The position numbers and the translations under genes were made by a program. The notes beneath the pieces are model-generated. The model had not been told where the DNA came from and searched no databases. It saw only the letters and a list, made by a program, of their open reading frames with translations. Positions 38,524-40,395 of a stretch of DNA of 64,000 bases are shown here, in pieces (the first letter of the stretch is position 1; the number at the start of each line of letters is the position of its first letter). The stretch lies in the NCBI GenBank assembly GCA_937957915.1, contig CALGNZ010000047.1, forward strand, positions 1 through 64,000, in the 5' to 3' direction. Source of the DNA: an uncultured Granulosicoccaceae bacterium (lineage in GTDB: Bacteria > Pseudomonadota > Gammaproteobacteria > Granulosicoccales > Granulosicoccaceae).

Positions 38524-40395
38524 ATGTCCAATTTGAAAAAACAATTTTTTCGTTTTTTACGCGGCCGTATCAATTGCCTTGTTATTAGTTTTTTCTTTGT
38601 TTTGCTGCCACCTGTTGCAACGTTCGCTGACCCTGCCAGTTCAGCTTTGGTCCTTACCAATGAGCCCGAACTCGGCGGCCACTCGGACAGCCTGCCAGCA
38701 GACCGGGAAATCCGCGTTACAAACGGTGTGCGAACAACCGTTGGGCAATACCCGTTTTTAACTGCAGTACTTTCCGGCAGACAGGTATCCTTAAGGTTTG
38801 AGGACGGTCCGTCATCGGCGTTGTTTTTCAGTGGCGGTGTGCTCTCAGAGTTCTCAGGCGAGTTGGTTGATTGTGGCTTTGCAATCAATGCTTGTCTTGA
38901 TGTGACAGACAAGGTTTGCTCAATTATTCTCGACTTTCCCGTCGCTGACCATGTGCCATTGACTCCATCACAACAGTTGCAGAATTGCCGACGCGGGGGG
39001 GGAATCGGCGCTGTCTTCAGGCCAAACTCGCGAAACTATACTGAACGGCTTGACCTTTTCGATGGAAATCCCCGGATACCTGCTGTTTATTTAAATGACG
39101 AAGAGGGCTATCAACACTTATTGCTCGCGCTGGCTGAGGGGAAACTCGGCATATCTGCCATTAAAGCAGTCCCGGATACTGCCCTGTGCGGTGGCACCTA
39201 TCTCGGTGGTCGCTGGGTGCTAACAGCCGCTCATTGCGTTGTGCGCAAGCTGGATGATGGTTCCTTTCGCGTCGTCAATGCCAGTGAATTGCTGGTTAAC
39301 GTTGGCGCCTACAATCTCACCGAAGAAAAAATATTCACGCAAGGTGTAGAGCAAATATTGATCAATGACTACCGGATTACCAATGGCTGGGATGAAAATG
39401 ACTATGCACTCGTCAAGCTTGATGCTGACCCGCTGCGCGGTGAGGCAATCAATCTTGCTACTGAAGAAAGCCTGGACTCCCGAGTTGCATCGTCAGAGGC
39501 AGCACTGGTTGTGGGCTGGGGTAGTACCGAAGTGCGAGAACCCCTGTCGCCTGCAACACTTGCAACACCAACCTCGCGTTCACCGTTGGCTGCCACTTTG
39601 CAAATGCAGACCGTACAAAGTTGCCGCACACTATGGCGCGATTTTCTATTGCTGAGTGGTGTTGAAAGAGAAGTACCAGATATTCGCGACATCCATTTGT
39701 GTGCTAGTTCGGAGATTCAACAGGATACCTGCCAGGGAGACAGTGGCGGGCCGCTCATGATCGATGTCAATGGCGAATTGCAGGTTGCGGGAATCACGAG
39801 TTTTGGGCTGGGTTGTGGTGGTTCACTTGGCTTGCCTGCTGTGTACGCCCGTGTACCCGCATTTCGCCAATGGGTGCTGGAAAAAACCGGATTGACACTG
39901 GCTCAGCAAGATGTTCGTGTACTCTCAGCGGATAGTCTGGTTGCACCAACAGCTGGTGGTGGTGGTAGTCTTGGTGGTGAACTGTTGATGCTGCTTGCCG
40001 GATTATGGCTGTCGTTAAAATCCACCAGATATGTACGCAAATTTCCTGTGGTGTTTGTTGCAATTGCTGCGTTATCCGGTTGTGCCGCAGATCAGGAAAA
40101 TGACGGATTTGCTATCGTTGCTGCCGACTCTGCAAACACGACTGAAGCAATTGACGCGGTGTACAACAGCGGTGTTATCAGCGCTGTGGTGGTCAGTACC
40201 GGTTGCACACAGGCGGAGCATTTTCAGATTGTGCAAACCGACAATGTGCAGCGTGCATGTGAGATTGAAATTCGTCGTATTAAACCTGACTTGTGTAAGC
40301 GAGCGGCACAGGCGCATTCCATCAGTATTAACTGGAGTAAGCCTGCAGAATGTGAGAATGTTATCGTTGCTAATCTGCCATTGAGTCGCGATTAG
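38524..40395 (+). CDS. Secreted trypsin-like serine protease with internal GlyGly-CTERM-like segment and C-terminal lipoprotein-like domain
   Basis: 623 aa with an N-terminal signal peptide (residues ~1-36). There is a weak repeat-free region to ~205, then an S1 protease domain with the catalytic triad His237 (TAAHC), Asp293 (NDYALVKL) and Ser407 (CQGDSGGPL). Residues 478-509 form a GGGGSLGG motif, a hydrophobic helix and a basic STRYVRK stretch. This is the anatomy of a GlyGly-CTERM sorting signal, which normally ends the protein. Here the frame continues through a second hydrophobic stretch with a lipobox-like LSGC (Cys520) into a ~100-residue domain with four Cys. Good ribosome-binding site GGAGAG 5 bp before the ATG. 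An internal ATG at 39988 could start a separate 135-aa lipoprotein. Confidence 0.88.
   Translation: MSNLKKQFFRFLRGRINCLVISFFFVLLPPVATFADPASSALVLTNEPELGGHSDSLPADREIRVTNGVRTTVGQYPFLTAVLSGRQVSLRFEDGPSSALFFSGGVLSEFSGELVDCGFAINACLDVTDKVCSIILDFPVADHVPLTPSQQLQNCRRGGGIGAVFRPNSRNYTERLDLFDGNPRIPAVYLNDEEGYQHLLLALAEGKLGISAIKAVPDTALCGGTYLGGRWVLTAAHCVVRKLDDGSFRVVNASELLVNVGAYNLTEEKIFTQGVEQILINDYRITNGWDENDYALVKLDADPLRGEAINLATEESLDSRVASSEAALVVGWGSTEVREPLSPATLATPTSRSPLAATLQMQTVQSCRTLWRDFLLLSGVEREVPDIRDIHLCASSEIQQDTCQGDSGGPLMIDVNGELQVAGITSFGLGCGGSLGLPAVYARVPAFRQWVLEKTGLTLAQQDVRVLSADSLVAPTAGGGGSLGGELLMLLAGLWLSLKSTRYVRKFPVVFVAIAALSGCAADQENDGFAIVAADSANTTEAIDAVYNSGVISAVVVSTGCTQAEHFQIVQTDNVQRACEIEIRRIKPDLCKRAAQAHSISINWSKPAECENVIVANLPLSRD

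Follow-up and report, generated by a model that had tools for sequence, protein, structure and literature searches.

Type II (lipoprotein) signals normally lie at the N terminus of a precursor and GlyGly-CTERM tails at the C terminus. The former are handled by Lgt and signal peptidase II, which act on the outer side of the membrane in the lipoprotein pathway. A single gene can also specify two mature envelope proteins, as in the Bradyrhizobium FbcH cytochrome b/c1 precursor, in which an internal signal peptide is cut after membrane insertion. FbcH differs from the fused protease described here in that its signal is of the signal peptidase I type, it lacks a rhombosortase tail, and its products are respiratory subunits.

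VesB of Vibrio cholerae is a GlyGly-CTERM S1 protease processed by rhombosortase (TIGR03501/TIGR03902). In GlyGly tails the glycines lie outside the membrane and the basic cluster is cytoplasmic (PMC3237569). Rhombosortase acts on the VesB tail at the glycines, and the C terminus created there receives an ethanolamine-containing (phosphoethanolamine-type) modification before export by the type II secretion system (PMC6219818; PMC13393428). Periplasmic build-up of GlyGly-tailed proteases has been proposed to be harmful (PMC13393428). Type II secretion effectors with adjacent membrane-associated chaperone genes include CpaA/CpaB and LipA/LipB (PMC4713064). In Listeria, a secreted protease and a lipoprotein carrying a lipobox (Tim) form the inhibitor-like pair Mtz/Tim (PMC8235301), which is paralleled by the Pseudomonas alkaline protease and its inhibitor (cited in PMC8235301).

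The window, the 64,000-nucleotide stretch of DNA analyzed here, is part of a 5.4-Mb draft genome. An intact 623-codon frame at 38524-40395 encodes a product of 623 aa with the following features:

38524-40395, + strand: fused gene encoding an S1 protease, a GlyGly-like tail and a lipoprotein partner (623 aa)
38524-38628, + strand: predicted N-terminal Sec signal peptide, approximately aa 1-35 (helix 3-27 in the AlphaFold2 model)
38719-39177, + strand: first S1 strand (VTNG), then a PA-like insert, aa 66-218 (from alignment)
39178-39876, + strand: S1 (trypsin) catalytic domain, aa 219-451, matched by Pfam Trypsin over the same residues (E 8e-29)
39955-39978, + strand: GGGGSLGG motif, aa 478-485, proposed rhombosortase site (below TIGR03501 detection)
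39976-40017, + strand: first hydrophobic helix, aa 485-498, GlyGly-CTERM-like, proposed to run out to in
39988-39990, + strand: in-frame ATG (Met489), possible internal start (anti-SD pairing -10.8 kcal/mol; not conserved)
40018-40041, + strand: basic loop KSTRYVRK, aa 499-506, both the basic cluster of the tail and the lipoprotein n-region
40042-40083, + strand: second hydrophobic stretch and lipobox LSGC (517-520), aa 507-520, internal type II signal
40141-40389, + strand: partner domain LIP1, approximately aa 540-622, all-beta, Cys 561/580/591/611

The frame, its coordinates and its motifs (catalytic triad, GGGGSLGG, KSTRYVRK, LSGC and the ATG at 39988) are as given in the initial annotation of this DNA. 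The first 35 or so residues have the basic start, hydrophobic core and small-residue end expected of a Sec signal peptide, and probably act as one. Trypsin is the sole Pfam match above cut-off. The catalytic domain has the S1 fold with a His237, Asp293, Ser407 triad and an Asp189-type pocket (DTCQGDSGG), and Foldseek matches it to factor XIa and kallikrein chains (E ~1e-15). The protease is split by the PA-like insert, which separates its first strand (VTNG/IIGG) from the part containing CGG...TAAHC. The Pfam search gave no PA match for the window protein itself, and a match at this insert was found for one relative only (G044). GlyGly-tailed S1 proteases of Paraglaciecola and Colwellia match the window protein across the insert region (window 38719-39177; L014), and these have neither a LIP1 nor a LIP2 neighbor. 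In the same genus, the locus is ordered as carboxypeptidase-like gene, tRNA_edit protein, protease with or without partner, Abhydrolase_2 esterase, small LptM-like lipoprotein and lysA-like decarboxylase.

The window protein shares with VesB the Sec signal, the S1 domain, and a Gly-rich motif, hydrophobic helix and basic cluster in the order typical of GlyGly-CTERM tails, and its genome also encodes rhombosortase and type II secretion genes. In contrast to VesB, the tail is internal, with 138 residues downstream of GGGGSLGG that include a lipoprotein signal and a folded domain; the tail also falls below TIGR03501. No match of the window tail to this model (NCBIfam GlyGly_CTERM) was obtained even at E <= 10, let alone at the curated cut-off, and the tail is therefore described here as GlyGly-CTERM-like rather than as a certified member. 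A default-threshold search of the window's own genome likewise returned no TIGR03501 match, although the default is uninformative for a model of 22 positions. The window tail has a Glu just inside the helix. The search for a rhombosortase proposed in the initial annotation was positive: one protein exceeds the curated cut-off (143 bits; cut-off 84) and is encoded on the same contig as the fused gene (G000:C47:107959-108414). The type II secretin GspD is encoded in this genome as well. Of two laboratory strains, Shewanella oneidensis MR-1 has rhombosortase and type II secretion, and the control genome of E. coli K-12 contains no rhombosortase scoring over the cut-off. Three more rhomboid-like proteins score below the rhombosortase cut-off (G000:C51:3557-3937, C16:90023-90403 and C140:10451-10894).

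The second signal, KSTRYVRK-FPVVFVAIAALSGC, has the three elements of a type II lipoprotein signal, namely a basic n-region, a hydrophobic core and a lipobox whose Cys is at +1. It occupies aa 499-520 of the 623-aa frame and would be N-terminal only if translation started at 39988. As the tail lacks both the terminal position and the model score, and the lipoprotein signal lacks the N-terminal position, neither is classed as a canonical member; we argue below that both nevertheless work like canonical members. An AlphaFold2 model of the fused protein (37 alignment rows; mean pLDDT 79) places two helices at the junction, 485-499 and 509-517, followed by a confident all-beta domain at ~540-622 (pLDDT mostly 84-97). 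Foldseek searches with the full fused-protein model matched the protease alone.

The C-terminal domain defines a family, LIP1, with the signature S-x-G-C-T...F...R...D-x-C-[KR] and invariant G, C, R, D, C and N residues. Of its four cysteines (561, 580, 591 and 611 in window numbering), 561 and 591 are invariant across the family. Neither Pfam nor NCBIfam contains a family that LIP1 matches above cut-off. In the PDB it has no sequence match, and its best fold match there has an E of 0.5 (Foldseek); the domain alone gave no fold match to viral models. Within the bacterial family, 24 of the 48 genomes encode it, at 26 loci in all, and a sample of 369 genomes from the class yielded 10 with the domain, the window genome included. 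An S1 protease adjoins or is fused with LIP1 at 24/26 loci within the bacterial family and at 7/10 class loci outside it, and one of the three others is cut by a contig end. Loci without S1 pairing are G062:C199, G023, G103 and G239, together with G243 (contig end). Nearly all the paired proteases have a Gly-rich, hydrophobic and basic C-terminal tail. Many LIP1 proteins have a lipobox, and some have a plain signal peptide without one.

The initial annotation suggested looking for homologues in which the protease stops behind the basic cluster and a gene of its own encodes the lipoprotein. Such pairs, with the two genes adjacent, were found (G002, G012, G209, Vibrio metschnikovii and others). 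The named LIP1 neighbors obtained by scanning the collection with a protease alignment are not an unbiased sample. Most separate pairs overlap or lie a few bases apart. In Vibrio metschnikovii CIP 69.14 the gene of a GlyGly-CTERM S1 protease, with a tail over the TIGR03501 cut-off, overlaps that of a LIP1 lipoprotein by 4 nt (L178 3812-5071, 5068-5427). Judged from these relatives, the fused gene arose naturally from a module of two genes, one for a GlyGly-tailed S1 protease that is secreted or at the surface and one for a dedicated lipoprotein partner.

LIP1 fusions occur in five genomes of two families: G000 (the window genome), G001 and G007 in one genus, and G044 and G318 in another family. 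Searching from the fused protease of G032 exposed a second lipoprotein family, LIP2, with no detectable sequence relatedness to LIP1. In the bacterial family LIP2 is found at 17 loci, all with an S1 protease adjacent or fused; the five fusions are those of G032, G024, G025, G026 and G057. LIP2 was not found in the 369 sampled class genomes, in a search run without a positive control. The G032 fusion (L018 1132-2979) has a degenerate Gly motif, FGLGSADH.

The basic loop, hydrophobic stretch and intact lipobox are present in 10/10 fusions, the lipoboxes being LSGC, LAGC, LSAC, LTGC and LGGC with LIP1, and LAGC, STGC, LTGC, VSAC and VSGC with LIP2. Linker shuffles produced this combination of basic cluster, hydrophobic stretch and lipobox in 0.4-0.8% of trials. 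In G007 the same three arginines serve the cluster of the tail and the lipoprotein n-region. Fusions with both signals span protein identities down to ~30%. Between the fused genes of G044 and G318 the partner domain has a dN/dS of ~0.32 (at dS ~1.05), and is therefore still under purifying selection after fusion. The initial annotation saw its idea threatened if most homologues were the same uninterrupted fusion, with neither the ATG at 39988 nor the lipobox conserved. In most homologues the protease and the lipoprotein are instead encoded by separate genes, and every fusion has retained its lipobox; the ATG is not conserved. On a tree of 13 proteases of the LIP1 set the fused state needs four changes, at least three of which are forced by well-supported branches, and on a tree of 17 LIP2 domains it needs two, in both cases with the direction (fusion or fission) left unproved. 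G008, the closest relative of the fused G007, has a normal tail end (SRRRVLPAL followed by the stop codon) directly before a convergent gene, and has lost its partner.

Our preferred reading, to which we assign a probability of about 0.55, is that the gene encodes one polyprotein that forms a helical membrane hairpin, with signal peptidase II cutting at Cys520 and rhombosortase probably cutting at the glycines, to give an anchored protease and a lipoprotein partner. A single chain would be made, and its N-terminal signal peptide would export the protease. The GlyGly helix would then act as a stop-transfer segment running out to in, and the basic loop KSTRYVRK would remain cytoplasmic, where it could serve both signals. 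The former lipoprotein signal peptide would recross the membrane from in to out, making the junction a hairpin and placing the lipobox and partner outside, within reach of Lgt and signal peptidase II. We assume that an internal type II signal can be processed after a stop-transfer helix. After Lgt, signal peptidase II would cut before Cys520 and free the partner as an ordinary lipoprotein, and rhombosortase would probably cut at the glycines, after which the protease would proceed to lipid attachment and type II secretion. In the periplasm, the partner may act on the protease, either by inhibiting it or by serving as a secretion chaperone tethered to the membrane. Such a doubly cut hairpin would explain why no fusion has lost its lipobox even though the signal is no longer N-terminal. 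Release of the two parts by cleavage was one of two options raised in the initial annotation, and the separate-gene relatives and the rhombosortase on the same contig make it the favored one, with both cuts predicted from sequence.

The open-access papers searched contained no precedent for an internal lipobox or for signal peptidase II cutting a bacterial polyprotein, and no described case of a GlyGly tail fused to a lipoprotein. At slightly below even odds, we tentatively propose that the fusions represent a recurring bacterial polyprotein with one shared hairpin, from which two different intramembrane proteases release the two products (rhombosortase at the GlyGly motif, signal peptidase II at the internal lipobox), and that LIP1 and LIP2 are two undescribed families of GlyGly-S1 partners, one reaching Vibrio.

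It is also conceivable, if unlikely, that the product is a stable single protein in which the uncut hairpin serves as a common membrane anchor for protease and partner and no more than one of the two cuts takes place. The lipobox and basic loop common to all ten fusions would be needless for a mere anchor, and rhombosortase is present over cut-off in nine of the ten fusion genomes. The Gly motif is weak or below the model cut-off in most fusions; at E <= 0.3, TIGR03501 matches 1/10 fused tails compared with 8/29 unfused tails, and the fused G007 tail scores 13.9 bits against a cut-off of 15.5, compared with 18.4 for its unfused sister G008. No rhombosortase was detected in the LIP2-fusion genome G032 (94% complete), and the glycine cut therefore cannot be universal. 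The degenerate Gly motif of G032 suggests that the sorting cut was lost there and the lipobox kept.

Rather less probable is dual translation, the other option of the initial annotation, in which the long protein from 38524 and, by an internal start at the ATG at 39988, a separate 135-aa lipoprotein precursor are made from the same mRNA. The ATG is in frame, and the codons after it specify a basic n-region, a hydrophobic core and a lipobox. Its predicted anti-SD pairing of -10.8 kcal/mol, stronger than the -6.6 kcal/mol of the annotated start, is reached by 1.5% of 263 internal ATGs in the long ORFs of the window. This pairing stems from GGT GGT GAA, however, codons that also spell Gly-Gly-Glu. 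Among the LIP1 fusions, an ATG is present in G000, G007 and G044, pairing at only -1.5 and -0.3 kcal/mol in the latter two, and G001 and G318 have none in the sorting helix. Some LIP2 fusions (G025 and G026) contain an ATG in frame whose pairing is fairly strong, and an internal start may apply to these. Both signals would in any event remain on the full-length product. The ATG at 39988 may thus add some product in the window genome, where the predicted strong Shine-Dalgarno pairing holds; as a general mechanism of LIP1 fusions an internal start is not supported.

Since neighboring pairs overlap or lie only a few bases apart in many relatives, loss of a stop codon or a single indel would suffice to join them, and the junction could be no more than a tolerable read-through. 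This is very improbable given that several lineages have fusions, which involve two unrelated partners, that the signals persist in fusions with as little as ~30% protein identity, and that the partner domain is under purifying selection. An assembly or sequencing artefact is hardly credible even though the genomes are mostly metagenome-assembled or draft, as the fusion is seen in ten independent genomes and with two partner families, and G057 is assembled as a single contig.

The gene associations point to a LIP1 and LIP2 function that bears on the protease, and the fusions strongly indicate that the partners function together with it. Protease and partner distances are correlated (36 pairs; Mantel r 0.42, with 0/5000 permutations as high), a correlation for which shared ancestry alone could suffice. 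Given this correlated divergence, and since two unrelated small envelope proteins pair with the same kind of protease, the partner probably acts on the protease. As in CpaA/CpaB and LipA/LipB, the gene of a secreted hydrolase adjoins that of a putative membrane-tethered periplasmic partner. LIP1 and LIP2 differ from those chaperones in that they have no detectable match among known families, are often lipid-anchored and are here fused to the effector; they lie beside the effector, but the anchor is a lipobox and not a transmembrane helix, and some LIP1 proteins lack the lipobox. In the Mtz/Tim and Pseudomonas alkaline protease pairs, too, the gene of a secreted protease adjoins that of a small envelope protein. 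Those proteases are metzincins and not S1 enzymes, however, their genes are separate, and their partners have other folds. We give chaperone and inhibitor roles about equal weight. Close relatives that have the protease and no partner (G008, G010, G006 and G003) indicate that the partner is dispensable, and its loss in several such relatives argues against an absolute requirement, including for secretion. The invariant Cys-[Lys/Arg] of LIP1 was considered as a canonical P1 for Asp189 trypsins and set aside, as the G044/G318/G209 group (and L168) has Gly189 while LIP1 keeps Cys-Arg/Lys.

Genes that have repeatedly joined a GlyGly tail to a type II signal, and kept both, are a natural experiment on whether the two processing enzymes each depend on a chain end. 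GlyGly-tailed proteases also gain two candidate dedicated partners that are unnamed in the family libraries searched.

In G103 and G239 (L120 3243-3614; L121 1254-1625) LIP1 is found without a protease, beside the gene of a secreted 321-aa protein (CLWVSSY...). This protein has a tandem relative in G103, and both genomes encode rhombosortase; a client other than the protease is possible for these LIP1 proteins. In G030 and G031 (L156 1110-4146; L157 1336-4300) the LIP2 gene has a GlyGly-tailed S1 protease gene on either side, the two in tandem, as though a single LIP2 partner served both.
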